DNA of 64,000 bases from a virus, in IMG/VR virus record IMGVR_UViG_3300042261_001186, positions 1 to 64,000 of that record. One strand, given 5' to 3'. Position 1 is the first letter of the stretch; every line of letters begins with the position of its first letter. The notes under the pieces were generated by a model. The model worked only from the letters and a program-made list of their open reading frames with translations. It was not told the origin of the DNA and ran no database searches. A program made the position numbers and the translations under genes. Of this stretch, positions 10,379 through 60,099 are shown one piece after another.

Positions 10379-10404
10379 AAAAAACCCTAAATTTTAGGGT
10401 TTTT
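10379..10404 (-). terminator. Hairpin terminator
   Basis: ACCCTAAA/TTTAGGGT with flanking A and T runs, just past the TAA (10410-10412) of the interrupted gene read on the minus strand. Confidence 0.75.
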
Positions 10405-10409
10405 AATTC

Positions 10410-10760: not shown

Positions 10761-10761
10761 A

Positions 10762-29000: not shown

Positions 29001-31249
29001 AAGGTGAAGATGTGTCTTATCAAATAGATAGTATATTTTCTGCTGCATTTGCATTATCTACATCTGTTAATCATAATGATTTAACTGGTTTATTTGGTTC
29101 ATCACCATATTATCATATGAGTTTAGATATGTGGTCAGCTTTATCAGGTGTTACAACAGGTACGACTTTTGGTAGTTCAGGTACATCTGGTGTAGGTAGT
29201 CCTGGAACAAGTGGAACATCAGGAACATCTGGAAGTTCAGGAACATCTGGTGTAGGAAGTCCTGGTTCATCTGGTACAAGTGGTACATCAGGTAAAGATG
29301 GACAATCTGATAAATATGCTACAACATCTAATACATCTATAACATTACCATTGACTCCAGGTTCAAATGTTTATTTAACTGGTGGTACTAGTTTATCATA
29401 TACATTAGCACAAACTGTTATTGTTTCATATTCATCTGGTCAAACATTTACTGCATCAATAGTAGATTATGATCCTTTAACTGGTGCATTCATATTAAAT
29501 GTTATTGATTCTAATGGATCTGGTTCATTGAATCCTTGGGAAATAAATTTAAATGGTGCACCTGGGCCAGCAGGAACATCAGGAACAAGTGGAACATCTG
29601 GGAAAGCAGGAAGTTCAGGTACAAGTGGTACATCAGGAACATCAGGAACATCAGGTAGTTCTGGAACTTCAGGTACATCAGGTAGTTCAGGAACATCAGG
29701 TAGTTCTGGAACAAGTGGTACATCAGGTAGTTCAGGAACAAGTGGAACATCTGGGAAAGCAGGAAGTTCAGGTACAAGTGGTACATCAGGAACATCAGGA
29801 ACATCAGGTAGTTCTGGTACATCAGGAATATCAGGTAGTTCTGGTACATCAGGAACATCAGGTAGTTCTGGAACAAGTGGTAGTTCTGGTACATCAGGAA
29901 CATCAGGTAGTTCTGGAACAAGTGGTAGTTCTGGTACATCAGGAACATCAGGTAGTTCTGGAACAAGTGGTAGTTCTGGTACATCAGGAACATCAGGTAG
30001 TTCAGGAACATCAGGAACATCAGGTAGTTCTGGAACATCAGGAACATCAGGAACATCAGGAACATCAGGAACATCAGGAACATCAGGTAGTTCTGGAACA
30101 TCAGGAACATCAGGAACATCAGGAACATCAGGAACATCAGGTAATTCAGGTAGTTCTGGAACATCAGGTAGTTCTGGTACAAGCGGTACAAGTGGTACAT
30201 CAGGAACATCAGGAACATCAGGTATAGCAGGTAGTTCTGGTACAAGCGGTACAAGTGGTACATCAGGTAGTTCTGGTACATCAGGTATAGCAGGTAGTTC
30301 TGGTACATCAGGTAGTTCAGGTACAAGTGGAACAAGTGGAACATCTGGAACATCAGGAACATCAGGTAGTTCAGGAACATCAGGTATAGCAGGAACATCA
30401 GGTAGTTCTGGTACATCAGGTATAGCAGGAACATCAGGTAGTTCTGGTACATCAGGTATAGCAGGAACATCAGGTAGTTCAGGTACAAGTGGTACATCAG
30501 GTAGTTCAGGTACAAGTGGCACATCAGGTAGTTCAGGTACATCAGGTAGTTCAGGTACAAGTGGTACATCAGGTACAAGTGGAACATCAGGAACAAGTGG
30601 AACATCAGGAACAAGTGGTAAAGATGGTAGTTCAGGAACATCAGGAACATCAGGTAGTTCAGGTACAAGTGGTACATCAGGTAGTTCAGGAACATCTGGA
30701 ACATCAGGTATAGCAGGTAGTTCTGGTACATCAGGTAGTTCAGGTACATCAGGTATAGCAGGTAGTTCTGGTACATCAGGTATAGCAGGTAGTTCAGGAA
30801 CAAGTGGAACATCTGGAACATCAGGGACTAGTGGTACATCAGGAACAAGTGGTAAAGCAGGTAGTTCAGGCACATCAGGTGTAGCAGGTAGTTCAGGTAC
30901 AAGTGGAGTATCTTTTAACAATAAGTCTATAACTGTTGAAAATCCAACTGCGTCTGAAAACATAATAATGTTTTATACTTTTGATGCAATAACTGTATCT
31001 AATATTCAAGCTGTTGTTAAGGGAACAACACCATCTATAACAATAGATTTGACACAAAATACAGATGTTTCTGCAGTTGGTACATCCATATTGACAGCAC
31101 CTGCAATTATAACAGGAACTACTACTGGTCAAAATTTAACTAGTTATGCAAATCCAAATATTCCAGCTAACAGATGGGTCATACTTGTATCAAGTGCAAC
31201 AAGTGGTACAATAACATCATTAACTGTAACAATTAAACATACACAATAA
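20096..31249 (+). CDS. Giant collagen-like tail fibre protein
   Basis: Protein of 3717 residues. Six tracts of Gly-X-Y triplets (almost all GTS or GSS, with interspersed GKD, GKA, GIA, GVA) cover roughly a third of the protein. Between them lie three carbohydrate-binding-like modules (W...YxxGDIVKY... pattern near 20868, 21030 and 26600), a module of about 400 residues repeated three times (DGDKGI..ADNGV.K, 21.4-25.0 kb), a globular domain at 25.2-26.3 kb and another at 27.9-29.2 kb. The C-terminus (30.9-31.25 kb) is a small beta domain. Collagen-like triplets without proline suggest a long trimeric shaft; the modules should bind host surface glycans. No TAG occurs in 11 kb of frame. Confidence 0.9.
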   Translation: MNPRDNISGKQIEDSTIQQNKLNLSNPGFFDSNSAATVSYVNALYLSGITSGITSGTSGVSGSSGTSGKDGNFFGTSGSSGESGSSGTAGSSGTSGSGTSGSSGKSGRDGVDGIDGTSGLTGSSGTSGKDGNFFGTSGSSGESGSSGTAGSSGTSGSGTSGSSGKSGRDGERGYDGADGTAGTSGETDGTSGTSGVGIGGTAGTSGETDGTSGTSGTSGTSGETDGTSGSSGISGTSGSSGKTGSSGTSGSSGTSIRKEVWSSTTNYFLGDIVKYSSEFGGDLYEYIAVNSNINVPPDTSFTYWNLIGIRHENWITEIYYVLGDIVKYNNLMYVAINNGLGVPPIGDPQSALYWLSMGSGSSGTSGTSGETDGTSGSSGRSGTSGSSGRSGTSGSSGITGTSGTSGEGSPGIDGTSGTSGTDGLLPEIGNQYDIIFRETGTTYGYNTTSGFTFNSATDYLKIGNISEATTRIHIYGENVGSYLNVADVSPDSAIFIDGNSTSDKSIIYGDAGVKKWATQTYREENGDFYYIYNIQTNNISQVYSRSGRSGINKQSNVMDYHPQYMDKVNGLLNDMEIRGWYDRLYQALYEVQISVQGSPDQFHWRKSRDNGVTWNSWSPNILCVTGSTNAVDLEHYITVYFKHLTGHTTFDRWQFTAFPQLPQGSFTVAPNGYTEILITDDYTQPIPVYSDVTNELSTTFTGFEECLADTTSAIFVGWELPYNSIYFNNGQNGSGVTLKFEYYSPSGWTEIQTGENLGTIQDFTDNLSKDGKVEWDRQELNWVEYQLPGKGSSYLLYWVRITTTTNPYTTPVLDSLSLGGTVRLGVYSAHMDANPSFYVDGTGRVIMGDYNNVLTNSPYTNIGYLGINTTEPQDIVHIFGLDNASDNTDTMHNHIMIDGVPDGDKGILFADNGVKKFEDYLYRNEGGEFKYTYSYANDKDIMVISEGGRFGINWSSPNMNPHAEYLNTIDPENGVDSLIVGGLYDKRIVRYYEIKITNIVSTPNEYQWRSSTDYGTTWTSWSSTETCSYGSFLLDNGIDVSFKNIAGHSLNDSWRFWAFPQLPGASLLVSPDLFKSVAVCYDISAVTPIYYDKTYNSASIFANGFMMLSGTTSLMYVANSRKFNSIYVGISNPGSGVTLKVEYLSSSGWTEMTFVNSNYIDQTNNLTQSGLISWDTSEMSDWISGVATGMTDSYNWLRLTSTTSIIISPYCYLVALHGLRRFGVRSGAFDPLPSFYIDALGRTIMGDYNRLNPIPLNGYLGINMTNPQNLIHSFGIDNIPDSEDDMHNNIMIDGISDGDKGIVWADNGVRKWSDYIYRNEYGEFKYTYNYESQRDQLVTSEGGRFGYNKQSNIPQYHAGYLNQFNDGLDDLIINGLYDKTYQTKYEIYISTTGITDTFKWRKNEDQTLFTDWITGITCYTGGTLIDSGIILTFENSNGHSLNDNWYFIGYPQLPQSTMSVGPPMFNEILGTIDYNTTNYNDLTYTMSTSDLNPNIVWPTGITNALYIGDVHRFNGMMLNITTPASGVTLVAEYYDINSGWTILSSDNNFIDKTYNLTQTGNIHWEKSTMNWVTTFPSGITESEYDLYWIRLRSTTSVLQTPNIITVLPHNKNRFSVYSAHLDENPNFYIDSSGRLFDLQQGIIGSTGYSVSSKFEVYSDIGKLLDVKTDGSIYLNQYNTTGFLKTSGTTGEVYVDTTNYAGSSGTSGFLPLIGNNGDLIIRDTGETYGYNSVAVNPTVLLSLGQETGEPNGFRWTNEDSIISFDITGHTFSIIPTGSTFEVWIHGVKYNLTGDTISIPTGVTQKYFIYYDNNCELTYGNSFDKTYVFDKLFVAVAYWDAEYQNLIYLGDERHGMIMDAATHYLWHLALGTAYISGLDVTNITIGDGSLNKHAAYSVLSGVIMDEDITHTIGNHLSGFTTKIFYLTGSTIHWEIGNNDLPVLTGGTGLMVYNKQSGTTWTLKNPADGSYVLYHIVATNDILDYIHVIIGQNEYSTLQLATDGAVTEIGNLKLEGLIVQEYAPIATIIYQTSSGFTNSVKGRIVLDVNGNSWIDWRGYSLGSVGGGGGGGGIGIDGTSGTSGTSGTSGISGSSGTSGSSGTSGTSGTSGTSGTSGIDGTSGTSGIDGTSGTSGTSGSSGKSGSSGTSGTSGSSGTSGTSGTSGIGLNERGVWTGSTQYFKNDIVYYSDSGMSGSFIAITNVIGFSPAESGSWSILALNGTSGISGTSGVSGSSGTSGTSGTSGSSGTSGTSGSSGTSGTSGTSGSSGTSGTSGSSGTSGTSGSSGTSGTSGSSGSSGTSGTSGTSGSSGTSGTSGTSGTSGSSGTSGKAGSSGTSGTSGTSGSSGISGSSGTSGSSGTSGTSGSSGISGSSGTSGSSGTSGTSGSSGTSGTSGTSGSSGTSGTSGTSGSSGTSGTSGSSGTSGTSGSSGTSGTSGSSGTSGTSGSSGTSGTSGSSGTSGTSGSSGTSGSSGISGTSGTSGSSGTSGTSGSSGTSGTSGSSGTSGTSGTSGSSGTSGTSGTSGTSGSSGTSGTSGSSGTSGTSGSSGTSGSSGTSGTSGSSGTSGTSGSSGTSGTSGSSGTSGTSGTSGSSGTSGTSGTSGSSGMSYITTRIPVVDSDYTVSGITNQTISYTSLSTKRTITLPPATTFGQIIQINDENGNVTPTNRLKIICNNSGETIAGDTYNLQISKYNNVQYKSDGLGHWSIFNRNQRLSTGVILKPTYTESNSGNTVSIGSDGLYNLGKNTDGSGLIRSWEITGTTLSLTNRMTNYVVANYNSGSPYIHVITDVTLINETTIIPLFTIYLEDNNTHVIDWDSLGLALVNKIHQSIVKTQRYRLQSGLVLGELPTRYVTLTEGIVWIGANSFTLSAFNSSGNTMYFLHHTTGGTWSSPELVTQYNNTQYDNLTGLHKVSGGHYVVNYIYRGVEIEEECYMVLGGANYTLLEAQGSLPPTDLPPIISSHSILTGRIIVSQGEDVSYQIDSIFSAAFALSTSVNHNDLTGLFGSSPYYHMSLDMWSALSGVTTGTTFGSSGTSGVGSPGTSGTSGTSGSSGTSGVGSPGSSGTSGTSGKDGQSDKYATTSNTSITLPLTPGSNVYLTGGTSLSYTLAQTVIVSYSSGQTFTASIVDYDPLTGAFILNVIDSNGSGSLNPWEINLNGAPGPAGTSGTSGTSGKAGSSGTSGTSGTSGTSGSSGTSGTSGSSGTSGSSGTSGTSGSSGTSGTSGKAGSSGTSGTSGTSGTSGSSGTSGISGSSGTSGTSGSSGTSGSSGTSGTSGSSGTSGSSGTSGTSGSSGTSGSSGTSGTSGSSGTSGTSGSSGTSGTSGTSGTSGTSGTSGSSGTSGTSGTSGTSGTSGNSGSSGTSGSSGTSGTSGTSGTSGTSGIAGSSGTSGTSGTSGSSGTSGIAGSSGTSGSSGTSGTSGTSGTSGTSGSSGTSGIAGTSGSSGTSGIAGTSGSSGTSGIAGTSGSSGTSGTSGSSGTSGTSGSSGTSGSSGTSGTSGTSGTSGTSGTSGTSGKDGSSGTSGTSGSSGTSGTSGSSGTSGTSGIAGSSGTSGSSGTSGIAGSSGTSGIAGSSGTSGTSGTSGTSGTSGTSGKAGSSGTSGVAGSSGTSGVSFNNKSITVENPTASENIIMFYTFDAITVSNIQAVVKGTTPSITIDLTQNTDVSAVGTSILTAPAIITGTTTGQNLTSYANPNIPANRWVILVSSATSGTITSLTVTIKHTQ
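20245..20862 (+). repeat. Collagen-like Gly-X-Y tract A
   Basis: Nine-base units of the type GGTACATCA/GGTAGTTCA encode GTS/GSS triplets, with charged triplets (GKD, GRD, GES, GET) interspersed. An internal block of about 100 residues is repeated almost identically (20283-20440 and 20472-20610). Confidence 0.85.
21166..21363 (+). repeat. Collagen-like Gly-X-Y tract B
   Basis: Short GTS/GSS/GRS tract between the second carbohydrate-binding-like module and the triplicated region. Confidence 0.8.
21361..25020 (+). repeat. Three tandem copies of a ~400-residue fibre module
   Basis: Marker segments recur about 1190 bases apart. The first begins near 21568 (IFIDGNSTSDKSIIYGDAGV), the second near 22770 (MIDGVPDGDKGILFADNGV) and the third near 23965 (MIDGISDGDKGIVWADNGV). 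Each is followed by a Y(R)NE.GEF.Y.Y block, an FPQLP motif and a FY[VI]D..GR segment. Confidence 0.75.
26303..26583 (+). repeat. Collagen-like Gly-X-Y tract C
   Basis: GTS/GSS tract preceded by a run of glycines (GGGGGGG at about 26280) and interrupted by GID triplets. Confidence 0.8.
26740..27900 (+). repeat. Collagen-like Gly-X-Y tract D (longest pure tract)
   Basis: About 385 residues of almost uninterrupted GTS/GSS triplets with rare GKA and GIS. At the DNA level it is a near-perfect array of 9- and 18-base units using three serine/threonine codon variants, so recombination and length variation are expected. Confidence 0.9.
29167..29310 (+). repeat. Collagen-like Gly-X-Y tract E
   Basis: Short GTS/GSS tract containing GVGSPG interruptions and ending in GKDG. 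Confidence 0.75.
29551..30912 (+). repeat. Collagen-like Gly-X-Y tract F
   Basis: About 450 residues of GTS/GSS triplets with regularly placed GKA, GIA and GVA triplets, starting from GAPGPAG, the only proline-containing classic collagen-like triplets here. Confidence 0.9.
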
Positions 31250-42746: not shown

Positions 42747-44159
42747 ATGATAACTAAATATTCAAAATATTTAAAACAAAACGAAGCTGATGATAATTCA
42801 GACTTTGATTATTTTGATGATTATGAGGAAACTAAACCTACATTGCCTAAAAAATCATCTCCAACTAAGAAAAATCTTTGGAATTTCAAAGGATTCATGG
42901 AACCTGAAGATCCAGATCAATTAGAACTTGATCTTGGTATAGAAAACCCTAGGAAGATAAAAGCTGCTGAGCTCAAAAAAATGGTTGATGATAAGGCTAA
43001 AAAAGAAAAAGAAGTTAGACAACCTACACATGTAGATACTGGAGATTATGTTGAAGTAGTGGATTTTGAAGATTTAAAAGAAGATCAATTAGAATTTTTA
43101 AAATCCGCACCTAATTTCTATGTTAGAGATATAGTTAATAGTAAAAGTTATCCATATGAAGTAGGAGAACCTTATGTAAACATAGGTTTCAGATCACCTT
43201 TCAAAATGTCTAGATTTAAAGTTATAGATAAATCTCATTGTAAGTACAAAATTTTATTTTTGAATTTTGATTTACCAGTAGATATACATGGTGAAAAAGA
43301 CGTCAATAATTTCTTCAGGGATTCAAAAACTATGTCTGAATTATTCAACAAACTTTTTGCAGAGAAAGAAGATGACATATTGGTTAGTTTTAATATGTAT
43401 GATGACATATATAGAATAAAATATGATTATTATATTAATGGTATATGTTTAAAAGATTATGATTTTGTATTTTTTGGACTCATATCTAATTTTACTTCAA
43501 TAGCAAAAATGCTCATAGATTATTTACAAAAACAGAAAATACCTTTCTTAAAATATGGTACTTTCAAAGAATATGATAACAAAGCCTTTGAATTACATTT
43601 ACTTGATTCTCTTGGATATCCATACATACCATCTATAATGGTTACGAAATTAACTAAAAAGATAATAGATATTGTTCAAAATGATTTTGAATTCCCTGTT
43701 ATAGTTAAGGATGTAAATACTAATAGAGGTGAAGGAGTATACAAAATAGATGATATGGAAGGGTTGTTGAAGACTTTCAGACGTAATAGTAGATTAATGT
43801 TAATACAAAAACATATACCTAATGATGGAGATTTTAGGGTTATAACAATTAAGAGAAAAGTAGAATTAGTTATAAAGAAGAAAAGGATAAGTAAAACTGA
43901 ATTCAGGGCTAATGTTGCTAGAGGTGGAAAGGCTATAAAAGGATCATTACCTCCACATATTCTTAAAATGTGTGAAGATATTTCTAAACATTTGGATAGT
44001 GATATTATTGGTTTTGATATAATACAAGATATGACTAATGGTGAATATTATGTAATGGAAACCAATGCTGGTCCACATTTTCCAACATTTTCTGTTATAT
44101 CTGGTGTGAATATACCAGAAATCATAGTTAATTATATAATGAGATTAATAGAAAAATAG
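42747..44159 (+). CDS. ATP-grasp ligase with capsid targeting leader
   Basis: Protein of 470 residues. The leader MITKYSKYLKQNEADD predicts a cut after QNE; acidic and proline-rich stretches follow to about residue 110. The C-terminal 200 residues are an ATP-grasp domain of RimK/glutathione synthetase type: FPVIVKDVNTNRGEGV, the QKHIPNDGDFRV strand, and IIGFDIIQD ... YYVMETNAGP with metal-binding Glu and Asn. Such ligases form amide bonds from carboxyl-phosphates, for example adding Glu to proteins. It starts the 42.7-49.2 kb operon. It ends in a TAG, one of very few; TGA occurs four codons later, overlapping the next ATG. Confidence 0.8.
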   Translation: MITKYSKYLKQNEADDNSDFDYFDDYEETKPTLPKKSSPTKKNLWNFKGFMEPEDPDQLELDLGIENPRKIKAAELKKMVDDKAKKEKEVRQPTHVDTGDYVEVVDFEDLKEDQLEFLKSAPNFYVRDIVNSKSYPYEVGEPYVNIGFRSPFKMSRFKVIDKSHCKYKILFLNFDLPVDIHGEKDVNNFFRDSKTMSELFNKLFAEKEDDILVSFNMYDDIYRIKYDYYINGICLKDYDFVFFGLISNFTSIAKMLIDYLQKQKIPFLKYGTFKEYDNKAFELHLLDSLGYPYIPSIMVTKLTKKIIDIVQNDFEFPVIVKDVNTNRGEGVYKIDDMEGLLKTFRRNSRLMLIQKHIPNDGDFRVITIKRKVELVIKKKRISKTEFRANVARGGKAIKGSLPPHILKMCEDISKHLDSDIIGFDIIQDMTNGEYYVMETNAGPHFPTFSVISGVNIPEIIVNYIMRLIEK

Positions 44160-44167
44160 AGAGATAT

Positions 44168-44635
44168 ATGATAACAAAATATGAAGAATTTATAAATGAG
44201 AATATTTTAGACAAAATTATGGGTGGTATTGATCGTGGTATTGGTAAATTTCATACTTCTACTAGACCTATTAGAAAAGCTATTAGTACAACTTTCATAC
44301 CTGAAAAAATGTATAAAACAATTAAAAATAAATTTGAACAAATTAAATTAAATTTTGATTTTGAAAATTTAGAATTAGTAGCTGACCCAATTGATAGAGA
44401 TACAAAATTTTTGGTTTACACTGATGAAGATGAGATAAAATTGGAAATAAATATGTTTTATATTCCAATAATATATTTTAATGGTGAAGATATAACAAGT
44501 AAATTGAATTCTTTTTTGACTATGGATATTTATAAGTATTTTATTACAAAATGGAATTATGGTAATACAAATAAAATATCTGGTCAAATTTTTTCAGATG
44601 TTGATTCTTTAGGAGAAGAAGATTGGTCTAAGTAA
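44168..44635 (+). CDS. Leader-bearing protein with C-terminal DSLGEEDW tag
   Basis: Protein of 155 residues. The leader MITKYEEFINEN is very close to the T4 sequence (cut after FINE). The middle is a mixed alpha/beta domain (FLVYTDEDEIKLEINMFYIP). The end is DVDSLGEEDWSK, the tag at the extreme C-terminus. It starts 8 bases after the TAG of the ATP-grasp gene. Unrecognised. Confidence 0.7.
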   Translation: MITKYEEFINENILDKIMGGIDRGIGKFHTSTRPIRKAISTTFIPEKMYKTIKNKFEQIKLNFDFENLELVADPIDRDTKFLVYTDEDEIKLEINMFYIPIIYFNGEDITSKLNSFLTMDIYKYFITKWNYGNTNKISGQIFSDVDSLGEEDWSK

Positions 44636-45914: not shown

Positions 45915-47384
45915 ATGGATTTGTTATTGAGAGATAGGAATAAAATCACAAATATAGTAGATGTATTAAGGAAAAACAAGCCTGAAGGTGGTGCAAATTT
46001 TTTTGATAGAGTTGATGAATTTGTGAGAGACCCTAAAAATGTTGATATGGTATTCAATCTCATAAATAAAATCAAACAAGATTATGGTCAAAATTTTAAT
46101 CTTATAGTCACAGGAAAATTTGGTGATTGGGTTTTTAATCTCATAAAAACCAATAAAATCAATGTAAATGGAGTAGTTATACATGTTAGTGGATCACTTA
46201 GAAGTGCAGCAAAAAATAAAACATTTCAAATAATAGGTGGAAATGAAAATCAAGCATATAATAAAAAATTTATATTATTGGATGATAGTTTTTATTCAGG
46301 TACTACAAAGAAAGAAATAGATAAACATTTAAATAAATATAATTCTAAAATAATAAGTACATATGTTTTCTATGATGGGTCTTTTCAAAAAAGACCAGAT
46401 GTATTCTCTGTTTATAGGCATTGTAATTATAATAAAGAAGATATCTTACCAGTAAAGAAATTACTTAGTATACTTAATGGAATAGATGATGCCAATATAC
46501 CTTATGATTTGTTGGAAAATCAAATAATGATAGGTCAGATAAGAAGTGTTAAGGAATTATTAAGGGAGATACAGATAGTCAGAGGTAAGTTTGGCAAACA
46601 GAATTTAGATATCAAATCTTATGGATATAAAAGGGAATATGAACATAAGAAAATGAAGAAATATGGGGATTTTGTTAACGAGTCAAAAAAAAAATATTTG
46701 ACCTTTGACGATTTAGAATTCAAAAAACACCCACTCGCAGAAGTTTATGATGAAATGGTTGCCATTGGTGGTTTTGATCCATTTGGGGATGAAAGGAAAC
46801 CATTGCAACAGGCAAAAATGAAATTTGAAAATGGTTATGGTGTATCTGTGTTATTGGGAGATTTATTTTATTCTAATGGTGTAGATACTTATGAAATCAT
46901 GTGCTTTGATGATAAAAATAAATTCATAGGGGATCCACTTGGTCATTTGACTAAAGATGAGGTCAATCATGAAATGATGAAATTACAGAGAAGGAAACAT
47001 CCTATTCAAAAATTCACAACAGAAGATCCTTATGGTGAAGAAGATTGGTCAGATGATATATATGAATCTATTATTAATAAAGGTGACTTTGAAATGACTA
47101 CAATTCAATTATGGCATAAATATATAAGATTTGGAAGAAAAGAAACTATAGATAGATTTAGGAAAAATGTTCTTGAATTCAAAACAGATAGTAAAGGATT
47201 AAAAGAATATAAAGGAAAGATAATAGGGTTTTATCCTTTACATAATAATAAGACAAGGGAGATAATAATATTATTTGACACTAAAGAATATGGGACTTTG
47301 AAAGTAAATGATAAATATCCTATAATAGTAAAATCTGAAGTGAATGAACATTTGAAAAAATATGAAGATTTTATAAATGATTAA
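45915..47384 (+). CDS. Phosphoribosyltransferase-like protein fused to a leader/tag protein
   Basis: Protein of 489 residues. Residues 1-240 form a type I PRTase-like domain with the PRPP loop FILLDDSFYSGTT (119-131). At residue 247 an internal methionine (ATG at 46653) begins MKKYGDFVNESKKKY, a full leader, followed by a domain with FDPFGDE, the tag DPYGEEDWSDD and another beta domain. The last residues (LKKYEDFIND) again resemble a leader. It therefore looks like two or more genes joined in frame; translation might also begin at 46653. PRTase activity on an unknown base is inferred. Confidence 0.7.
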   Translation: MDLLLRDRNKITNIVDVLRKNKPEGGANFFDRVDEFVRDPKNVDMVFNLINKIKQDYGQNFNLIVTGKFGDWVFNLIKTNKINVNGVVIHVSGSLRSAAKNKTFQIIGGNENQAYNKKFILLDDSFYSGTTKKEIDKHLNKYNSKIISTYVFYDGSFQKRPDVFSVYRHCNYNKEDILPVKKLLSILNGIDDANIPYDLLENQIMIGQIRSVKELLREIQIVRGKFGKQNLDIKSYGYKREYEHKKMKKYGDFVNESKKKYLTFDDLEFKKHPLAEVYDEMVAIGGFDPFGDERKPLQQAKMKFENGYGVSVLLGDLFYSNGVDTYEIMCFDDKNKFIGDPLGHLTKDEVNHEMMKLQRRKHPIQKFTTEDPYGEEDWSDDIYESIINKGDFEMTTIQLWHKYIRFGRKETIDRFRKNVLEFKTDSKGLKEYKGKIIGFYPLHNNKTREIIILFDTKEYGTLKVNDKYPIIVKSEVNEHLKKYEDFIND

Positions 47385-48102
47385 AAATTTCCAATCATAT
47401 AATGAAAGTGTAGTTCCAAATTCAGTTGTATTCAATATTAGGGATTATTGTACAACTTATGATAATATTCATAAGTTGAATTATAGAAATGTTGAAACAG
47501 GTGATGTTTTTAGGATATTTGATTTGTTCAAAGGGACTTTTGGTTTGTTTATAAATGATAATGATTTTAGAATATTTCAAGAAAATGATACAGAATTTAG
47601 ACTTTTTGATACAAAAAAAGGGAAACATCTTGAATTATGGCCAAATATGGGCTGGAAAAATACTTGGATTAATCAGACAAATAAAAATGATAAAGATAAT
47701 AAAAAATGGCTTGATAAATATAGAATAGGTAGAGAAGATAAAAAGAAAGTAATAATTCCTATTGAAGGTTATATAACAACATATGATGTAAATAGATTTT
47801 TAACTGATATAAGAACAGAACTTAAATATGGGTATAGAACTTTGATTGGTTATATTAAGCAAGGATATCGAGAAGAACAACTTATTGGAGTAAGACAACC
47901 TAGATATATAACAATTCAAGAAAATAATGGTTATGAAGGAAGAAATACTAATTTCAATGTAGTTTATATAGATATGTCCAATGGTAGTGACCCCTATGGG
48001 ACTAGGGGAATATTAAATATTGCTAAACCTGTTAAATTAAAACAGACTTTAAGAAAATTCACTGAAATAGATCCATTAGGAGAGGAAGATTGGGATGATT
48101 AA
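47377..48102 (+). CDS. Leader-bearing protein with C-terminal DPLGEEDW tag
   Basis: Protein of 241 residues. The leader MIKNFQSYNESV predicts a cut after YNE. A barrel-like first domain (NVETGDVFRIFD) and a second alpha/beta part follow; the end is EIDPLGEEDWDD. Start and stop overlap both neighbours: GATGATTAA is read as Asp-Asp-stop here and as Met-Ile-Lys in the next gene. Unrecognised. Confidence 0.7.
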   Translation: MIKNFQSYNESVVPNSVVFNIRDYCTTYDNIHKLNYRNVETGDVFRIFDLFKGTFGLFINDNDFRIFQENDTEFRLFDTKKGKHLELWPNMGWKNTWINQTNKNDKDNKKWLDKYRIGREDKKKVIIPIEGYITTYDVNRFLTDIRTELKYGYRTLIGYIKQGYREEQLIGVRQPRYITIQENNGYEGRNTNFNVVYIDMSNGSDPYGTRGILNIAKPVKLKQTLRKFTEIDPLGEEDWDD

Positions 48103-48802
48103 ATTTTTCAAATATATTCAATTTATATTAGAACATAATGTAATTCATGATAAAGACATAAATATAAACTTATTCATTTCTTTAATCAGAAGAATTTATG
48201 GTGATGATATATTGATATTCAAATTTGATTATTTAGAAAAAATAGAAAATTTTTTAACCAGACCAGATAATTTTGATTTAATAAAGAAATTATTCTCAAA
48301 TATAGATAAAAATTCTGACATAATAGTTAGTGGTAGTTTTGGTAAATATATATTTAATATAATTGATAATTTGGATTTTGATGGTAATGTAATACTAGTA
48401 AATGGTAGTATTAGAAAAGTAATGGAAGATAAAGACAACAAAGTTGAAATTATAGACTATAGATATAGAGATATAAAAAATAAAAAATTTATTTTTGTAG
48501 ACGATAGTTTTGTCAAAGGAGGTACAAGAGATAGGATAAATGAGTTTTTAAGTAAATACAATAGTGAAATAGTTAAGACATATACATTTTACACCCATTA
48601 TAAAATGGATAAAAATGATGTTTTTTCTTTTTATTGTTATGGTAAATCAAACTTAATTCCAATACCTATTCATAAATCACTTGATAAAATAAAAAATATA
48701 AATCTATTCAATTTCAAAAATATACTGATAAGAAAAATAGATTTAGGTGAAATAACAAATTTAAATGATTTAGTAAAAACAATAATAAAATTAGATGAAT
48801 AG
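48095..48802 (+). CDS. Second phosphoribosyltransferase-like protein with leader
   Basis: Protein of 235 residues and paralogue of the first 240 residues of the 45915 protein. The PRPP loop is FIFVDDSFVKGGT (132-144), and DIIVSGSFGKYIF and LVNGSIRKV align with the paralogue. Unlike it, the N-terminus has a leader-like MIKFFKYIQFILEHN (cut after ILE). It ends in TAG with a TAA two codons later. Overlap with the HAD gene at 48795 implies coupled translation. Two different PRTases next to a HAD phosphatase suggest a pathway. Confidence 0.7.
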   Translation: MIKFFKYIQFILEHNVIHDKDININLFISLIRRIYGDDILIFKFDYLEKIENFLTRPDNFDLIKKLFSNIDKNSDIIVSGSFGKYIFNIIDNLDFDGNVILVNGSIRKVMEDKDNKVEIIDYRYRDIKNKKFIFVDDSFVKGGTRDRINEFLSKYNSEIVKTYTFYTHYKMDKNDVFSFYCYGKSNLIPIPIHKSLDKIKNINLFNFKNILIRKIDLGEITNLNDLVKTIIKLDE

Positions 48803-50536: not shown

Positions 50537-50582
50537 GGTGAATTTTTTATTAAATAAAAATTTGTATTTTAATAAAAAGTGT

Positions 50583-50592
50583 TATCTTTGCA
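50583..50592 (+). promoter_or_regulatory. Bacteroidota-type promoter before clpC-like gene
   Basis: TATCTTTGCA is the -7 box, with TTG at 50562-50564 (18-base spacer) as the -33 element, close to the Bacteroidota consensus. The leader to the ATG at 50662 would be about 65 bases and includes a late-type box. Confidence 0.6.
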
Positions 50593-50661: not shown

Positions 50662-52866
50662 ATGAAGATAAAAAAATTCAAACTAGATTTATCTGAAGGC
50701 CGTAAGCCTAAAGGTTATAACAGAGTGGTCAATGAGGGCAATATGCCAGAAGATCAAGGTTTCGAAGGTGAGGAAAGACCACCACAAGATGAACAGGCTC
50801 CAGTTGATGCTGAAGAAAGACCTGCAACTCCAGTGTTGGATAATTTTGGTATAGATTTAACTAAAAGGGCTGAAGAAGATAAATTGGATCCAGTCATTGG
50901 TAGACACAAAGAAATCATTGAATTGTCTTGGATACTTTGTCGTAAGAACAAGAATAACCCTGTTTTGATTGGTGATGCTGGTGTTGGTAAAACAGCTATA
51001 GTTGAAGGGTTAGCACAATTGATAGTTAAAGGAAAATGTCCTAGTAAACTGAAAGGTAAAAAGATTATGACACTTGACATTGGTAGTTTACTTGCTGGTG
51101 CAAAATATAGAGGACAATTTGAAGAAAGAGTAAAAGCTATTGTTCAAGAACTCTCTGCAAATAAAGAATGGGCAAATAGGGTTTTAGGATCAAAACAAGG
51201 TGATATTATTTTATTCATTGATGAAGTCCATATGATAGTTGGTGCTGGTGGTGAAACAGATGCTGCAAATATGTTGAAACCTGCTTTGGCTAGAGGTGAA
51301 CTTCAATGTATTGGTTGTACAACATTAAATGAATATAGAGAATCTATTGAAAAAGATAATGCTCTTGAAAGAAGATTCCAAAAAGTTATGGTTGAACAAA
51401 CTTCATTGGATGATACTTTGGAAATTTTGAAAAGAATTAAAGAAAGATATGAAGATTATCATATTGTTACTTATACTGATGATGCTTTGAAAGCTTGTGT
51501 TTCACTTGCTGATAAACATCTTCAAGATAGATTTTTCCCAGATAAGGCAATTGACTTATTGGATGAAGCTGGTGCTAAAGCCCACTTGGAAGATGCAAAT
51601 GTTCCAGAAGAAATTACTTCTTTGGAAGAAGATCTTGAAAAAATGAGTGCTGAAAAAATGCTTCATTTACAAGCAGGTAGATATGATGAAGCACAGGCAG
51701 TAAGACAAAAAGAAGTTGCTGCTGATGCTAAGTTGAAAGAAATGAGAGGCAAATGGGAAGAAGAAAATAACTTGAAAAGAGTTGAAATCACTGCTGATAG
51801 TGTTGCTGAAATTTTCTCTATTAAAACAGGTATTCCAGTTGAGAAATTCAATGAAGATGAAGGTGCAAAACTCATGAAAATGGGTGAAAATTTAAAGATG
51901 GATATCATTGGACAAGATGAAGCCATAGCTAAAATTTCTAAATGTGTAAAGAGAAATAGAGCAGGATTGAAAGATCCAAAAAAACCAATGGGTGTATTCC
52001 TTTTCTTAGGTCCAACAGGTGTTGGTAAAACACAAACCGTAAAATCTTTGGCTAAACATTTGTTTGGTTCAGAAGATAATATGATTAGGGTTGATATGAG
52101 TGAATATGCTGAAAGTCACAACAGATCAAGAATGATTGGTGCTCCTCCAGGATATGTTGGTTATGGTGAAGGTGGACAATTAACTGAAAAAGTTAGAAGA
52201 AAACCATATAGTGTTGTTCTTTTGGATGAAATTGAAAAAGCACACCCTGAAGTTTTGACTTTATTCTTACAGGCATTTGATGATGGTATTATGACTGATG
52301 GTTCAGGTAGAAAAGTTAGTTTCAAAAACACTATTATGATTATGACTTCTAATATTGGAACTAATGTTGTAAAACAAGCTAGACCAATGGTTGGTTATGT
52401 AAATGCGCCAGCTGAACAGAAAGAAGTTGAAATGAAAGATCAAATGAAAAAAGAATTGAACAAAAGACTTCCTGCTGAATTCTTGAATAGAATTGATGAT
52501 GTTATTATATTCAATTCTTTAGGTAAAGAAAATCTTTTCAAAATCATTGATATTGAAATTGGTCAATTGGTTAAAAGAATAAAAGAATTAGGTTATACAT
52601 TAACCTTAACAGAAAAAGCAAAAGAATTTCTTCTTGAAAAAGGATTTGATGAAAAAATGGGTGCAAGACCTTTAAAAAGAGCTATTCAAACATATATTGA
52701 AGATCCTTTAGCAGATTTAATGTTAAGTAAGAAAATAACAGATAATATTAACATTGATTATGATGAAGCAGCTAAGAAACTTTTGATAAATGGTGAACCA
52801 GTTAATGAAAGTTTCAATATGTTAGACACCGTTAAAAAATTTGGAGAATATAAAAAACTTTTCTAA
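50662..52866 (+). CDS. clpC: ClpC-type AAA+ unfoldase with capsid-targeting-like leader
   Basis: Protein of 734 residues with two AAA+ modules. The first has VIGRHKEI, Walker A GDAGVGKT and Walker B ILFIDEVH; a short UVR-like coiled region follows (AGRYDEAQAVRQKEV). The second has GPTGVGKT, LLDEIEKAH, the GYVG pore loop and the C-terminal small domain. The Clp N-domain is missing. Instead there is the leader MKIKKFKLDLSEGRK (cut after LSE) with a second site RVVNE|G and an acidic Pro-rich linker. A VGY segment near residue 578 sits where ClpC has its ClpP-binding VGF loop, so ClpP contact is possible. An unfoldase in the capsid would be unusual. Confidence 0.9.
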   Translation: MKIKKFKLDLSEGRKPKGYNRVVNEGNMPEDQGFEGEERPPQDEQAPVDAEERPATPVLDNFGIDLTKRAEEDKLDPVIGRHKEIIELSWILCRKNKNNPVLIGDAGVGKTAIVEGLAQLIVKGKCPSKLKGKKIMTLDIGSLLAGAKYRGQFEERVKAIVQELSANKEWANRVLGSKQGDIILFIDEVHMIVGAGGETDAANMLKPALARGELQCIGCTTLNEYRESIEKDNALERRFQKVMVEQTSLDDTLEILKRIKERYEDYHIVTYTDDALKACVSLADKHLQDRFFPDKAIDLLDEAGAKAHLEDANVPEEITSLEEDLEKMSAEKMLHLQAGRYDEAQAVRQKEVAADAKLKEMRGKWEEENNLKRVEITADSVAEIFSIKTGIPVEKFNEDEGAKLMKMGENLKMDIIGQDEAIAKISKCVKRNRAGLKDPKKPMGVFLFLGPTGVGKTQTVKSLAKHLFGSEDNMIRVDMSEYAESHNRSRMIGAPPGYVGYGEGGQLTEKVRRKPYSVVLLDEIEKAHPEVLTLFLQAFDDGIMTDGSGRKVSFKNTIMIMTSNIGTNVVKQARPMVGYVNAPAEQKEVEMKDQMKKELNKRLPAEFLNRIDDVIIFNSLGKENLFKIIDIEIGQLVKRIKELGYTLTLTEKAKEFLLEKGFDEKMGARPLKRAIQTYIEDPLADLMLSKKITDNINIDYDEAAKKLLINGEPVNESFNMLDTVKKFGEYKKLF

Positions 52867-52883
52867 ATTTTTAGATAAAAATA

Positions 52884-52913
52884 AAAACCCAACAATTTTG
52901 TTGGGTTTTTTTA
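52884..52913 (+). terminator. Hairpin terminator after clpC
   Basis: CCCAACAA/TTGTTGGG with T7. Its 3' arm overlaps the -33 region of the next promoter. Confidence 0.85.
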
Positions 52914-53831: not shown

Positions 53832-55631
53832 TTAGATTAATACACCATGAGAATCTGTAACCTCAATAGCCATGAATTGTTTTTCTGGGAAGAAACCAAT
53901 ATCAGCTACTGCATATCTTGAACGGATAAGCATTCTTGGTGCCCATGTTGCTTCAGAAATCAATGAAATTGATTGTGCCATCAAATAAGGGATAAATAGA
54001 AGACCTGGTTGGTCAACACTATTTTTCCTACCTAAATAGATGTAGTTATCATCCCATCTCATATAAGGATCAACATAGATTGAAATTGCGCCTACATTAC
54101 CCATTGGGTAAAGTTGACCATTGGTACTCAATTTACCAGCATTAACTGGGTTGATTGTGTAACCAGCGATATCTTGAATAACAGATGCTAAGTTACCATT
54201 TGTTACCATGTATTGTGCTGGTCCAATTCTACCATCAGTTGCGATAAAGTTAGAAGCGTTATTGATTTTGGCAATAAGTTTTCTCTGGATTGAGTGAGTT
54301 GTTTCACCCATTGCTCCACCGTTTGCTGTTGTTGACAAAGCATCGATGTAGGTATCAACATTAAGGTCAAATTTTGAAATCAAACCTGTTGCGTCTTTAG
54401 GAGCCGTGTAAGAAACTCTGTTCTTCATAGCCAAAGTTCTGATTTTACCAACAATTTCCTTAGAAATTACTTGGGTCAATTCATTAATTAAAACACCTTC
54501 AAGTTTCTGAACAATGTCCATACCTGTTGCTGCTTTAATATCTTCAATTTGGGTTCTCTTCAATGTTGAAGAAATTTCAACATCACCAACTTGAATTGCC
54601 TTTGTGAAGACATCTGGACCAATTACACCAGGATAAGTTTTTTCATCTTGGTATCTTGTCATTCCACCACCTGGAGCTGTTGTATTTCCCCAACCATCTT
54701 CCATATTAGAAACCCAACCTGCTGAGAATCCAGGAATATGATCTTCAAGTAATGAAATCAATTCAACACCCCAGTTACCTGATGTAGTACCTGTTGTTGC
54801 ACCAGTCAAACATGTAAAACCACTAGCTGATAAATAAGCTGTGATAGAACCTGATTGTGGGAATGTGTTTAACATTTGATCCCAAGCTGAACCATCTTGT
54901 GGTGTCATTGAACCAACAGTGAAACCAGCTTGACGATAACATCTAAACATTGGGTAACCATCAACTCTTGAGAAACCTAAGAATTCTAACCAGTTTGCAT
55001 AACCTGCACCTGTTGTTGAAGATGGACCTGCACCTGAGAATAATGTGGTTGAAATACCACCTGCACCTAAGTGAACCCATGCTCTTTTTGATAAACCACC
55101 AACTCTTTCTTGAATATCCAAGATTACGAGTTCTGCTTGAATAGCTGCTTTTAAATTAGCATCTTCAGTTGTTGAACCAGTTGATTTTACTTTAAAAACC
55201 AATGGTCTTTGTTTAGGATCAGCATCACCGTGGAAATCACCACCACCTTGGTTGTAAGCATTGTCATATTTAAAATCTACAAACAATAATTCAATTCTTG
55301 GAGAAGCGGTTGGCTTTACAGCAACCAAATCCAAACCAATTGTTTGAGCTGCAATCTTCATTGCAACTGGGAGTAAATTCTGTGCAACGTCACCACTACC
55401 CATTGTGCCACCCCCTTGCCAAGTTGAACCTGGAATTGTGGAGATAACTGGAGCTTGTACATAACCAGCACCATTGCCATTCAATGTTGCATAACCAACA
55501 TTTTCATTCATTTGATGCATTTCTGCATACTCGGACATCCATGCTCTTTTTTCATCATCTTGAACTCTGAGAGCGTCAAGAATTGGAGCCCATTTTTTTA
55601 CTGCTTTCGCACTATCTACTATAAAATTCAT
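53832..55631 (-). CDS. 23: Major capsid protein (gp23-like)
   Basis: Protein of 599 residues, near the T4 gp23 length. The late segment has the gp23-like order ISIYVDPYM, YLGRK, GLLFIPYL and a final MLIRSRYAV (T4: VDPY, GYKG, LFYCPY, KTRY). The N-terminus is helical and charged, and MNE at residues 41-43 is a good prohead protease site, which would remove a delta domain of about 43 residues. T4 gp23 is cut after Glu65. It is last in the head module and followed by a terminator. Confidence 0.85.
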   Translation of the reverse strand: MNFIVDSAKAVKKWAPILDALRVQDDEKRAWMSEYAEMHQMNENVGYATLNGNGAGYVQAPVISTIPGSTWQGGGTMGSGDVAQNLLPVAMKIAAQTIGLDLVAVKPTASPRIELLFVDFKYDNAYNQGGGDFHGDADPKQRPLVFKVKSTGSTTEDANLKAAIQAELVILDIQERVGGLSKRAWVHLGAGGISTTLFSGAGPSSTTGAGYANWLEFLGFSRVDGYPMFRCYRQAGFTVGSMTPQDGSAWDQMLNTFPQSGSITAYLSASGFTCLTGATTGTTSGNWGVELISLLEDHIPGFSAGWVSNMEDGWGNTTAPGGGMTRYQDEKTYPGVIGPDVFTKAIQVGDVEISSTLKRTQIEDIKAATGMDIVQKLEGVLINELTQVISKEIVGKIRTLAMKNRVSYTAPKDATGLISKFDLNVDTYIDALSTTANGGAMGETTHSIQRKLIAKINNASNFIATDGRIGPAQYMVTNGNLASVIQDIAGYTINPVNAGKLSTNGQLYPMGNVGAISIYVDPYMRWDDNYIYLGRKNSVDQPGLLFIPYLMAQSISLISEATWAPRMLIRSRYAVADIGFFPEKQFMAIEVTDSHGVLI

Positions 55632-55709: not shown

Positions 55710-58181
55710 TTATCTTTGATTTAATCTTTTCAAATATGCATCTACTTGAGAATCACTGAGTTTTGTGTTATCAAATCCGCTATAGCTTTCTTTTAGCAGA
55801 GTAACCTTACCCATATTTTTCTTAGCATATTCATGGAGGTTTCTGGAATTCCAGAAGCTTTCCATTTTGTCCTCAGTCAGGTTAGTATAAAATTGTGCAC
55901 TGCTTATAACACTACCTTGAACTTCTGGTTTTAAACTTTCCCAAATCGGTCTGAGATCGCTGGGGATATTGTCAATTAAGATTTCATTAAAGCTTCTGTT
56001 TTGAACAGTCAACGCTCTAGACATAATTTTCAAAACTTCATTTTCTGATGTGTAATACTTGCTTTCGTTCATTGCAGCTACTACTTTTTCTTTATCTTGT
56101 GGAGAAAGACTATAGAATGCAGTCTTTTTCTTTTCTGACAAGAAACTTAAAAAATGTGGGTCTTTATCATCTGAGGCTTCTCTTTTTTTAGTCTCATTGA
56201 TTTGCTTCAATATCATCCTCTTTAATGCGTTTTTAGATTCAAAAATCCTGTTACCAATTGGTGACAATCTTGATTCTTGAATTTCTTGTACTTCACCAGT
56301 ATCTGACAATTTTACAACTGCAATACCATTATCAGTATTCATAGCTAAAATTTCACCAGTCTTGTCATCATCAATTTTAACAACTTGACCTGGAGTCAAT
56401 TCTACACCATCAATATCATCTTCAATTTCTTCAGCGTTTACGCCATCAACATCAAAATCATCTAAATCATCTTGACCTTGTGCCTGACCTTGTCCTTGAA
56501 CTTGACCCTGACCTCGGATTGGTTGAGCTTGACCTTGACCTTGAATTTGTCCTTGTCCTTGGACTTGACCCTGACCTTGTGGTTGAATCAATCCTTGACC
56601 TTGAACTTGACCTTGGCCTTGTCCCATTTGTGCTTGTCCTTGTGAATCTTCATCATAATATTTAGATACATTATTTGTTTTGAAATCTCCCATTCTTTGT
56701 TCAGGTGATTCAATTGTTTCTCTGAGCATACCTAAACCTTTTGAGTTTAATTTTTCAGAAATGTATCTACCATATTCTATGTTTTTATCCAATGCTTCTG
56801 CGATGTAATTTTCATAAGCAATTGAATCTGTTAAATTTTCTGCGATATATTCAGCATATTTAATGCTATTATCTAATTGTTCACCAATGTATTCTGAATA
56901 TTTAATACTATTGTCAACATGTTCAGCAACATATTCTGAGTATTTGATATTATTATCAACATGTTCAGCAACATATTCTGCATAAGCAATGTTCTTTTCT
57001 ACATTTTCAGCAATGTATTCTGAATAAGCAATATTCTTATCAAGATTTTCAGCTACATATTGTGAATAATCAATTGATTTGTCTACATTTTCAGCAATGT
57101 ATTCTGAATATTTGATAGTATGATCAACGTTTTCAGCAATATATTCTGAAAAATCTATGGATTTATCCAATGTTTCAGCAATGTAATTTTGATAATCAAT
57201 TGATTTATCAACTGATTCAGCTACATATTCTGAATAACCAATGGCTTTTTCCAAGCTTTCAGCCAAATAATCATTGTATTGAATAAGTTTGTCTGTTTTG
57301 CTTTGAAGTTTTTCTTCTAATTTTTCGTTGGTTTTTTTGATTGTTTTGTTTTCTTGAACTAATACCTGCATTGTTTCTGCAAGATAATCAAGATAAGAGG
57401 TTATTTTCTTAAAGCCCTCATTGAAGGATTCGTACTTCTCGTATAAATTATTAAGTTTTTTAGGATCAAAATTACCACTCTTTACGGTTTGACTAATTTC
57501 TCTTTTTGTTTTGGTAATTTCTTCTGTTAAATAATTTGAGTACCTTTCCATTTGTTCTTTTGTTATAAATTCATTTTTATCCATATTAAACAAATCGTTT
57601 ATTTTTGACTCATCGGATATTTCGAATATCCTAAAGTTAGCACTCTCATTGAATCCCAAAGATTCATTTAAAGTGCGAATTTCCATCTTTGCTGAGCTAA
57701 ATCCAGGATCAGCAACAGCATCATAAGTAAATAATTTTTTAATGGTAACATGACCATTAGATTCAGTTACACCAGCAGCTCTAGATGATACAAAAATTGG
57801 AAATCCATCATCGACCAAAGCTTGAGCTTCTTTACCCCAATGAGTATTTAACAATCTTATTTCTCCATCAACCCTATTCTTTTCCTTAACAAAAAAAGCC
57901 TTCTCAACAACGTGTGACACTCTTGAGAGGCTTGTATCGAAAACATCTGGGTGATCGAATTCACCATAAACAACTCCTAATGTTTTTTTTCTTTCTAGTA
58001 ACTCATCCAAATGAGGCAAAAAACCAGCTGAATCATAAATTCGCTCATTGCGATTCTTAACACCAAATTCTGTAAATACACCGCCCAAGAGTATATTCTT
58101 CTTTCCATTATTGGCATTAACAGATTCATTTAATTTTTGTAACCCACTGGTAGAATTTTCAATGATTAAAACATTCTTCAT
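55710..58181 (-). CDS. 21: Prohead protease fused to scaffold (gp21+gp22-like)
   Basis: Protein of 823 residues. Residues 25-175 are a T4 gp21-type serine protease (S77): EFDHPD (His77), FVSSRAAG (Ser132/133) and DAVADPG (Asp near 158). Residues 302-483 are thirteen 14-residue helical repeats of form Y-S-E-Y-[IV]-A-E-N-[VL]-D-K-x-I-x. Each contains [ILV]-[AGS]-E, the T4 prohead protease cleavage pattern. A Gln-Gly-rich linker (about 505-570) and a C-terminal helical domain follow. In T4 the protease and scaffold are separate genes. The start MKNVLIIEN is close to a possible cut at KLNE|S. The core would be assembled and then digested. Confidence 0.85.
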   Translation of the reverse strand: MKNVLIIENSTSGLQKLNESVNANNGKKNILLGGVFTEFGVKNRNERIYDSAGFLPHLDELLERKKTLGVVYGEFDHPDVFDTSLSRVSHVVEKAFFVKEKNRVDGEIRLLNTHWGKEAQALVDDGFPIFVSSRAAGVTESNGHVTIKKLFTYDAVADPGFSSAKMEIRTLNESLGFNESANFRIFEISDESKINDLFNMDKNEFITKEQMERYSNYLTEEITKTKREISQTVKSGNFDPKKLNNLYEKYESFNEGFKKITSYLDYLAETMQVLVQENKTIKKTNEKLEEKLQSKTDKLIQYNDYLAESLEKAIGYSEYVAESVDKSIDYQNYIAETLDKSIDFSEYIAENVDHTIKYSEYIAENVDKSIDYSQYVAENLDKNIAYSEYIAENVEKNIAYAEYVAEHVDNNIKYSEYVAEHVDNSIKYSEYIGEQLDNSIKYAEYIAENLTDSIAYENYIAEALDKNIEYGRYISEKLNSKGLGMLRETIESPEQRMGDFKTNNVSKYYDEDSQGQAQMGQGQGQVQGQGLIQPQGQGQVQGQGQIQGQGQAQPIRGQGQVQGQGQAQGQDDLDDFDVDGVNAEEIEDDIDGVELTPGQVVKIDDDKTGEILAMNTDNGIAVVKLSDTGEVQEIQESRLSPIGNRIFESKNALKRMILKQINETKKREASDDKDPHFLSFLSEKKKTAFYSLSPQDKEKVVAAMNESKYYTSENEVLKIMSRALTVQNRSFNEILIDNIPSDLRPIWESLKPEVQGSVISSAQFYTNLTEDKMESFWNSRNLHEYAKKNMGKVTLLKESYSGFDNTKLSDSQVDAYLKRLNQR
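56465..56650 (-). repeat. Gln-Gly-rich low-complexity linker
   Basis: Encodes repeats of GQGQ and VQGQ/IQGQ. It separates the scaffold repeats from the C-terminal domain. Confidence 0.7.
56733..57278 (-). repeat. Thirteen 42-base scaffold repeats
   Basis: Each unit encodes 14 residues with a Y-[ILV]-[AGS]-E core. The period of two heptads fits a coiled coil. All thirteen keep the potential cleavage Glu. Confidence 0.85.
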
Positions 58182-58281: not shown

Positions 58282-60099
58282 TTAAAATGTTGGGGCTTGA
58301 CCACCTCCTTGACCACCTTGTGGTGGTGCAGCACCTTGACCTCCTTGAGCTGGGGCTTGAGCACCTCCTTGAGCACCGCCCATTTGAGCACCACCACCCA
58401 TTTGAGCACCACCACCCATTTGAGCACCACCACCAAATTCTCCACCACCCATCTGAGCACCGCCACCGCCGAAGTCACCTCCACCGAAACCACCACCGCC
58501 GAAGTCACCTCCACCACCTGGCATTCCACCCATTTCACCACCTTCTGGACCAGCAGCATTACCTGCCCTCTTACGTTCAAGCATTTTATATTTGTTATTC
58601 TCTTCAATATCAGCATCACTGAATTTCATAATATGTCTGATAATCCATTCATTACTTAAATATGGTTTACCTTCAGGATCTTGAATTGAAGAACTTAATG
58701 TCTGTGCAATTTGAGCTCTCTCACTCAAATTCTTTAAATGTCTCCATTCTTCAAATAAAGTATCAGAAATAAAATCTAATCTTATTGCATCATTAAAATC
58801 AACATCATCTTTCAATTCTGGAAAATCTAAAATCATTTGAATTTTCAAAGGTTTCAAAATAATTTCTTTGAAAATAGTTCTTATTCTATTAATATAATTT
58901 TTAAATTTTACTTCATCTCTAGTAACAGCAGCATTTGAATCATAAGCATAAGTACCACCACCATTATCTTCATCAAATCTTTGGAATGGTAATTTACTAG
59001 CTCTTTTTAAAATTTTATAAAACCATTGAAGAACAATATCTTCATTCAAATTCACTTGGTTAGGTTGTAATATTTCAATTGATGGTGTACCACCATTACC
59101 TTCTGGGAACCAGAAATCTTTACTAAATGGAATATTTGTACTACCATTAATAGAAACGGTACCCATCCTATCATCCCATTGAACATCATCATGATATTCA
59201 CTCATCAATTCATAAATTTGTTGTTCAGCTTGTTGTCTAGATAAACCACCTACTGGTATAACAAATTTCTTGTAAATGGAAGCTTGATTAATATTATAAA
59301 GTAATCTAGCTTGTTCAATCATTTTTAATTGATTGTAAGGTCTGATCAAATTTTCAACATAAGATGTTTCTCCATATTCATTATTATTAGAATATGAAAT
59401 ATAAATAATCTGTGAATCTAATAATATTTTTCTCATCTGAGGATTATCTGGATGTTGAATCCAAATCATAGTATTAGTATTAGGATCAGTTGCAACAATT
59501 AAAGTAATTGGATCAAGAGGGGCTAAATCAATAATATTTTTTTGTTTGTCATCATAAATTATTTCATATGCAATATATCCATCAATTAAAAGATTTTTTA
59601 AATATTGCCATGCAATTTGACCTTCATTAAAATTAAATGTGTTTATGAGTTTTGTAAAATTTTCTTGATATTTTTGTCTTATTGTTTGTTCATAATTATC
59701 TGGTATATCTTTTACATAACAAAATCTATTATTGTCATCATATATAATACATTCATCTGCAATTTGTGTGATAAAATCTTTTATTTCATCTTTAATGGAA
59801 TATTGTCTTAATATTTTTCTTTTATCAAGATATGTTCTATCTAAATAAGCGATTGATTTTTTATCTAAAAATCTAGCAATAGTTTTTTTAGTAAATAAGT
59901 CATACATATTTGAACTATTAGGTTGATAAAGAACATCTGTTGTTTCTTCATGTACACCCATAGCATAAGCATTTCTAATTCTCATATCATTGTATTCCAA
60001 CCCACCAAACATTGTGGATAAACTTCGTAATATTTTGTTGAACAAACCAAAATTTGTGTTGTTAGTTTGGTTTCCTCCATATCTATTATATGATGCCAT
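58282..60099 (-). CDS. 20: Portal protein (gp20-like) with glycine-rich tail
   Basis: Protein of 605 residues. The T4-type portal blocks are clear: YLDKRKILRQYSIKDEI, LLIDGYIAYEIIYD, LDPITLIVATD, KLPFQRFDEDNGG, and a late KFSDADIEEN. The last about 85 residues are a low-complexity tail (GGGDFGGG, AQMGGG repeats, ending in QAPTF) that is unusual for gp20. The N-terminal half has a truncated paralogue at 810-1826. The portal forms the DNA entry vertex on which the prohead assembles. Confidence 0.9.
   Translation of the reverse strand: MASYNRYGGNQTNNTNFGLFNKILRSLSTMFGGLEYNDMRIRNAYAMGVHEETTDVLYQPNSSNMYDLFTKKTIARFLDKKSIAYLDRTYLDKRKILRQYSIKDEIKDFITQIADECIIYDDNNRFCYVKDIPDNYEQTIRQKYQENFTKLINTFNFNEGQIAWQYLKNLLIDGYIAYEIIYDDKQKNIIDLAPLDPITLIVATDPNTNTMIWIQHPDNPQMRKILLDSQIIYISYSNNNEYGETSYVENLIRPYNQLKMIEQARLLYNINQASIYKKFVIPVGGLSRQQAEQQIYELMSEYHDDVQWDDRMGTVSINGSTNIPFSKDFWFPEGNGGTPSIEILQPNQVNLNEDIVLQWFYKILKRASKLPFQRFDEDNGGGTYAYDSNAAVTRDEVKFKNYINRIRTIFKEIILKPLKIQMILDFPELKDDVDFNDAIRLDFISDTLFEEWRHLKNLSERAQIAQTLSSSIQDPEGKPYLSNEWIIRHIMKFSDADIEENNKYKMLERKRAGNAAGPEGGEMGGMPGGGGDFGGGGFGGGDFGGGGAQMGGGEFGGGAQMGGGAQMGGGAQMGGAQGGAQAPAQGGQGAAPPQGGQGGGQAPTF

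Follow-up and report, generated by a model that had tools for sequence, protein, structure and literature searches.

Within the first 64,000 nucleotides of a 130,397-bp IMG/VR virus record (IMGVR_UViG_3300042261_001186), hereafter the window, lies an open reading frame for a ClpC-like AAA+ unfoldase without a Clp N-domain (50662..52866, plus strand; 734 aa), identified by Pfam, alignments and a structure model. The record is a contig of a T4-type huge phage, and T4-type capsid, protease and portal genes are found 1-7 kb from the Clp, all on the minus strand. They encode a gp23-type major capsid protein with a possible cleavage site (↓) MNE↓N near residue 43 (53832..55631; Pfam and sequence), a gp21-type prohead protease joined to a repeat region that carries many [IV]AE↓N sites and is probably a scaffold (55710..58181; Pfam, PHROG matches and sequence), and a T4-type portal protein gp20 (58282..60099; Pfam and PHROG matches). 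The protease matches phrog_207 and phrog_3014, both head maturation protease, and Pfam S77 only below the cut-off. Its tandem repeat, Y.EYIAEN.DKSI, supplies about ten [IV]AE-type sites, and from its sequence the protein looks like a self-cleaving protease-scaffold fusion.

The head-gene block shares 79.6% DNA identity with the 735-kb huge phage LR756501. Clp is absent at this locus in LR756501 and in three further syntenic relatives (L059, L066 and L024), though the flanking genes are there; LR756501 has a Clp elsewhere, with an N-domain and without a leader. Upstream of the Clp in the window is a Bacteroidota-type promoter-like sequence, TTTG-N18-TATCTTTG (50561..50590, plus strand), of a pattern that occurs 5 times in the window against 6.1 in shuffles and is thus not above chance. 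An exact TATAAATA is missing upstream of the gene, the window shows no enrichment of T4-late patterns, and the claim of the first-pass annotation that the gene has both host-type and late-type promoter boxes does not hold up. An intrinsic-terminator-like hairpin follows the Clp (52883..52910, plus strand).

Among other features of the window, a 3717-aa protein with long collagen-like repeats (20096-31249, plus strand; Pfam Collagen, E 1.4e-133) is probably a tail fibre.

An N-domain-less ClpC-like unfoldase

With two complete AAA+ modules and a D2-small domain, the protein is, by sequence, a class I Hsp100/Clp unfoldase. Pfam places AAA at residues 101-242, AAA_lid_9 at 249-349, AAA_2 at 441-613 and ClpB_D2-small at 620-698, and a scan of the 734-aa ORF finds no Clp_N, as expected from the initial description of a ClpC-type unfoldase without N-domain; the core begins at about residue 56. 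In the alignment, Walker A and B motifs, arginine fingers and sensor residues are present in both modules, which had been described as intact. NBD1 has Walker A GDAGVGKT (residues 104-111; 50971..50994), an intact pore loop KYRG (148-151; 51103..51114) and Walker B LFIDE (184-188; 51211..51225), and NBD2 has Walker A GPTGVGKT (450-457; 52009..52032) and the pore loop GYVG (497-500; 52150..52161), all on the plus strand. Catalytic and pore motifs are thus kept, and the alignment gives no sign of an inactive core, the outcome that would have spoken against the initial proposal. The AlphaFold model has a confident core (mean pLDDT 80.8) and falls below 50 at residues 1-50 and 718-734; from these motifs and this profile the core appears active and both ends appear to be flexible appendages.

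The closest cellular homologues are Bacteroidota ClpC proteins, at up to 57% identity, and in the PDB, sequence and fold comparisons both point first to ClpC, from B. subtilis, S. aureus and M. tuberculosis. The middle domain (residues about 316-371; 51607..51774, plus strand) is of the short ClpC type, not the long ClpB type: it aligns without gaps to B. subtilis ClpC, and the model gives it helices at 316-338 and 341-371. Like the ClpC of B. subtilis and S. aureus, the phage protein has two AAA+ modules, a short middle domain, pore loops and a V-G-aromatic loop. The last of these, VGY, a putative ClpP-binding loop pointed out earlier near residue 578, is placed at residues 577-579 (52390..52398, plus strand), opposite the VGF of B. 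subtilis ClpC in the alignment, and departs from the ClpC pattern [LIV]GF in its final residue. The protein differs from ClpC further in having no N-domain, and hence no adaptor docking site, and in its cleavable-looking end peptides. Because core and middle domain match ClpC and the N-domain is missing, we call it N-domain-less ClpC-like rather than ClpC.

How unusual is the loss of the N-domain? Counted by alignment, 106 of 179 distinct full-length viral Clps have none, and the domain has been lost several times across the Clp tree; among Bacteroidota-type genomic Clp homologues, the core is preceded by 95 residues or more in 79 of 80. Phage Clps without the domain are therefore common, and its absence is nothing special by itself. 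The idea that the domain has been replaced is supported in one part, since a leader and a linker stand in its place, and weakened in the other, the absence as a special trait.

Peptides at both ends of the Clp

The N-terminus reads MKIKKFKLDLSE↓G. The leader MKIKKFKLDLSE (residues 1-12; 50662..50697) ends at a predicted gp21-type cut after E12, by the leader HMM and the T4 L/I-X-E rule (PMC9026906); residues 13-25 (50698..50736) end at a second predicted site, VVNE↓G, with the cut after residue 25; and an acidic linker, predicted to be disordered, occupies residues 26-55 (50737..50826; all plus strand). Each of these elements had been noticed in the first reading of the sequence, and all are present, up to about residue 55, the cuts themselves being predictions. 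In T4, the leader, or CTS, directs proteins into the head, and delivery of enzymes fused to it is proven; IPIII needs no more than its first 10 residues to be targeted, and of these, positions 4 and 7 carry the most weight; gp21 cleaves after L/I-X-E; and both termini of Alt undergo processing (PMC9026906). The site after the Clp leader, LSE-12, is of the L/I-X-E kind, and VNE-25 and VNE-716 are of a related form. The leader has F6 and, at the position equivalent to F7, D9; with the second T4 aromatic missing, it is weaker by the T4 rule.

A strict regular expression for leaders found 11 among 766 relatives' sequences (1.6 expected), and we used instead an HMM trained on the leader-bearing ORFs of this contig, with the Clp and T4 sequences left out. 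The Clp leader scores 9.4 bits, a value reached by 39 of the 169 N-termini in the contig (the Clp and about 38 other ORFs), by 1 of 2000 composition shuffles of the Clp N-terminus, by 4 of 641 internal Met windows and by none of 456 Bacteroidota N-termini. Applied to 60 T4 ORFs, the same HMM ranks ipIII (9.9 bits) and ipII (9.5) first, with the next ORF at 6.9 and ipI at 5.7. By these sequence comparisons, the leader appears genuine and scores beyond chance.

With some 38 other leaders in the contig, the Clp appears, as judged from sequence, to be one of the cargoes of an extensive internal-protein system. The leader-bearing ORFs make up about one quarter of the total and are nearly all of unknown function; the known domains among the scanned leader or leader-like ORFs are GluRS (11631-13226), a RimK-like ATP-grasp (42747-44159) and a PRTase (48095-48802). 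Some of these look metabolic, and the leader might therefore not signal packaging every time.

The first-pass annotation overlooked an extension at the other end of the protein, PVNE↓SFNMLDTVKKFGEYKKLF. This tail, VNE↓SFNMLDTVKKFGEYKKLF (residues 714-734; 52801..52863, plus strand), consists of a predicted cleavage site followed by a leader-like core, VKKFGEY, and lies largely in the low-confidence C-terminal segment of the model. The Clps of other huge phages aligned with it have no such extension. Within the contig it is the second-best C-terminal leader core among 169 ORFs, after that of the ORF at 45915, which ends SEVNE↓HLKKYEDFIND; when the tail is shuffled, site and core together are matched in 49 of 20000 cases. 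Across a wider phage set, 12 of 1069 proteins carry site plus core at the C-terminus against about 2 expected, and these 12 include near-copies and some likely chance cases. Matches in three genomes (L029, L047 and L051) were rejected as independent tags, the proteins being homologous and of one family. A C-terminal leader-like core preceded by its site, as in this Clp, is not described for T4 in PMC9026906.

Two proteins appear to carry the tag at either end. Homologues of the PRTase-like ORF 48095 in LR756501, L059 and L066 have site plus core at the C-terminus; the window protein stops short of it and is leader-like at its N-terminus. The GluRS-type protein is leader-like at the N-terminus in the window and carries VVVE↓SKLLKFDEF at the C-terminus in L247 and L249. 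These swaps suggest, at the level of sequence, that N- and C-terminal tag positions may be equivalent. The ORF with the best C-terminal core (45915-47384, plus strand) has a PRTase-like domain, then an internal leader-like MKKYGDFVNES and finally its terminal SEVNE site; from its sequence, it resembles two tagged proteins joined into one.

A separate acidic motif, DP[LFY]GEE[ND]W or EE[DN]IEW, stands at the extreme C-terminus of 28 of 169 ORFs, against 0.05 expected from shuffles, near the N-terminus of 8 ORFs, mostly directly after the leader, and internally 22 times. Examples in the window are 5686-6936 and 10762-11250 (both minus strand) and 44168-44635 and 47377-48102 (both plus strand), and beyond it the stretch 99278-109921 of the contig; in LR756501 it occurs as DPYGEEIWNE in the ORF following that phage's own Clp. 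It is possibly a tag or docking motif.

A clade of tagged Clps

Five IMG/VR contigs (L247-L251) encode the closest relatives of the window Clp, all 54-55% identical to it and without N-domain; the major capsid protein of one of these phages, L249, is 52% identical to that of the window. Their Clps carry a leader, MKKLKLYELFTGE↓E, at 9.5 bits, and a tail, DVNE↓S..LKPLNEF. One of two Clps from a further contig, L076 Clp1 (4944-6998 of L076, plus strand), ends in the tail IIE↓KFVKSWNKF, and its leader is weak (3.7 bits, reached by 275 of 2000 shuffles); the same phage encodes a second N-domain-less Clp, which is untagged (8709-10853, plus strand). A tree from an alignment stripped of most tag columns groups the Clps of the window, L247, L249 and L251 with L076 Clp1 in a single clade (SH-aLRT 99.9); in a first tree, built without L247-L251, the window Clp had sat unplaced on a long branch. 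In a survey of 179 other viral Clps, leaders scoring 9.4 bits or more and the tail turned up in this clade only. The relaxed tail pattern was set after the tails had been seen; shuffled tails yield 0.37 matches on average. Since L247-L251 are near-copies, the independent tagged cases number about three. A scan with L076 Clp1 alone as query retrieved only itself.

Two of the three tagged lineages, L247-L251 and L076 Clp1, have lost the NBD1 pore loop KYRGQF, which the window Clp keeps, and they retain the NBD2 GYVG and the VG[FY] loop.

Other N-domain-less Clps, from the huge phages LR756502, LR745206, LR756504 and LR756508 and from IMG/VR contigs, share the AAA+ core and the missing N-domain, but those examined have neither leader nor tail, and ClpP genes are present in four of their phages. 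For the 'ClpA' that counts among the core genes of moraphages (PMC12619734), the likeness is by description only. Atu_ph07 encodes several Clp proteins, for which the accessible part of its description states no virion evidence. The ejection proteins of the phiKZ/SPN3US type are head-internal and have propeptides that a gp21 homologue removes by cleavage after Glu (PMC5694885, PMC9026906); these propeptides are much longer than the Clp leader, and the accessible parts of those papers name no Clp among the proteins. We found no reports of a packaged Clp, or of such leaders in huge phages, among the open-access papers searched.

Proposed packaging and its alternatives

The reading toward which we lean, on T4 analogy and sequence, is that this N-domain-less ClpC-like unfoldase is a head-internal cargo of a T4-type huge phage. 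The case draws on the AAA+ motifs, the T4-like leader, the C-terminal tag, the co-occurrence of both tags in one clade and the protease gene in the contig, and it bears out the earlier suggestion that the Clp is a packaging candidate. The likeness to T4 IPI-III and Alt extends to a leader HMM that recognises ipIII and ipII, an L/I-X-E-type site, a gp21-type protease and the two-end processing of Alt; the differences are that the cargo is an AAA+ unfoldase and that its leader misses one of the two aromatics. Several observations count against it: the second aromatic is missing (D9), the leader of L076 Clp1 is weak, the tail pattern is post hoc, there are about three independent cases, C-terminal tags are only modestly enriched over chance in the wider phage set, some leader-bearing proteins look metabolic and late-promoter evidence is absent.

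By analogy with T4 and from the motifs, targeting and trimming might proceed as follows. During head assembly, the leader and the C-terminal tail would dock on the prohead core, or scaffold, and the gp21-type protease would cleave the N-terminal side after LSE-12, VNE-25 or both, and the C-terminal side after VNE-716. Once trimmed, the unfoldase would remain in the head and leave with the DNA into the next host, where the hexamer would re-form and thread proteins through the NBD1 and NBD2 pores; its substrates might be co-delivered phage proteins, or it might, via the VGY loop, work with host ClpP. We regard packing in the head followed by delivery with an immediate function in the host as a tentative proposal. 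Equally speculative is the generalization that huge T4-type phages pack an AAA+ unfoldase, tagged at both ends, for action before phage gene expression. That the C-terminal tag is a new, mirror-placed kind of capsid-targeting tag is, taken jointly with the packing and delivery reading, likewise a possibility that we put forward with reserve.

The alternative that survives best, which we consider rather unlikely, is a conventional cytoplasmic Clp, descended from a host ClpC by loss of the N-domain and acting as a chaperone or ClpP partner in the infected cell, with end peptides that are incidental or serve stability or partner binding. The closeness of the Bacteroidota ClpC homologues fits this, as do the frequency of N-domain-less Clps in phages, most of them untagged, and the gene's own terminator and possible host-type promoter. 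Of five huge phages checked, four, with N-domain-less Clps, encode 1-3 ClpP; none was found in our 130-kb contig, which is a fragment of a genome, or in the 735-kb relative LR756501. A cytoplasmic role also leaves unexplained why leader and tail co-occur in one clade only, why the leader scores equal those of T4 internal proteins and why the second Clp of the L076 phage is untagged.

Less probable still is a prohead-core assembly factor, docked on the scaffold by its tags, that would unfold or clear proteins and then be trimmed or expelled without being delivered. The same tags and protease would serve such a factor, the scaffold region is rich in matching [IV]AE sites, and AAA+ chaperones including ClpA have been proposed to act in jumbo-phage virion assembly (PMC7824862); its absence from the locus in the four syntenic relatives argues against a general role in assembly for a gene sited among those of the head. 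That leader and tail are functionless, low-complexity K/F/E-rich ends is highly improbable: phage composition does favour K, F, I and E, and some of the C-terminal matches in the wider set look accidental, but few shuffles reach either end's match and both ends are conserved in the clade at 55% identity.

Why would a phage pack an unfoldase at all? If the head-cargo reading is true, the phage would import its own protein-remodelling motor along with its DNA, a possible answer to the refolding of large internal proteins after passage through a narrow tail or, alternatively, an immediate means of dismantling host or defence proteins. The leader would then become a readout of the internal-protein set of huge phages.
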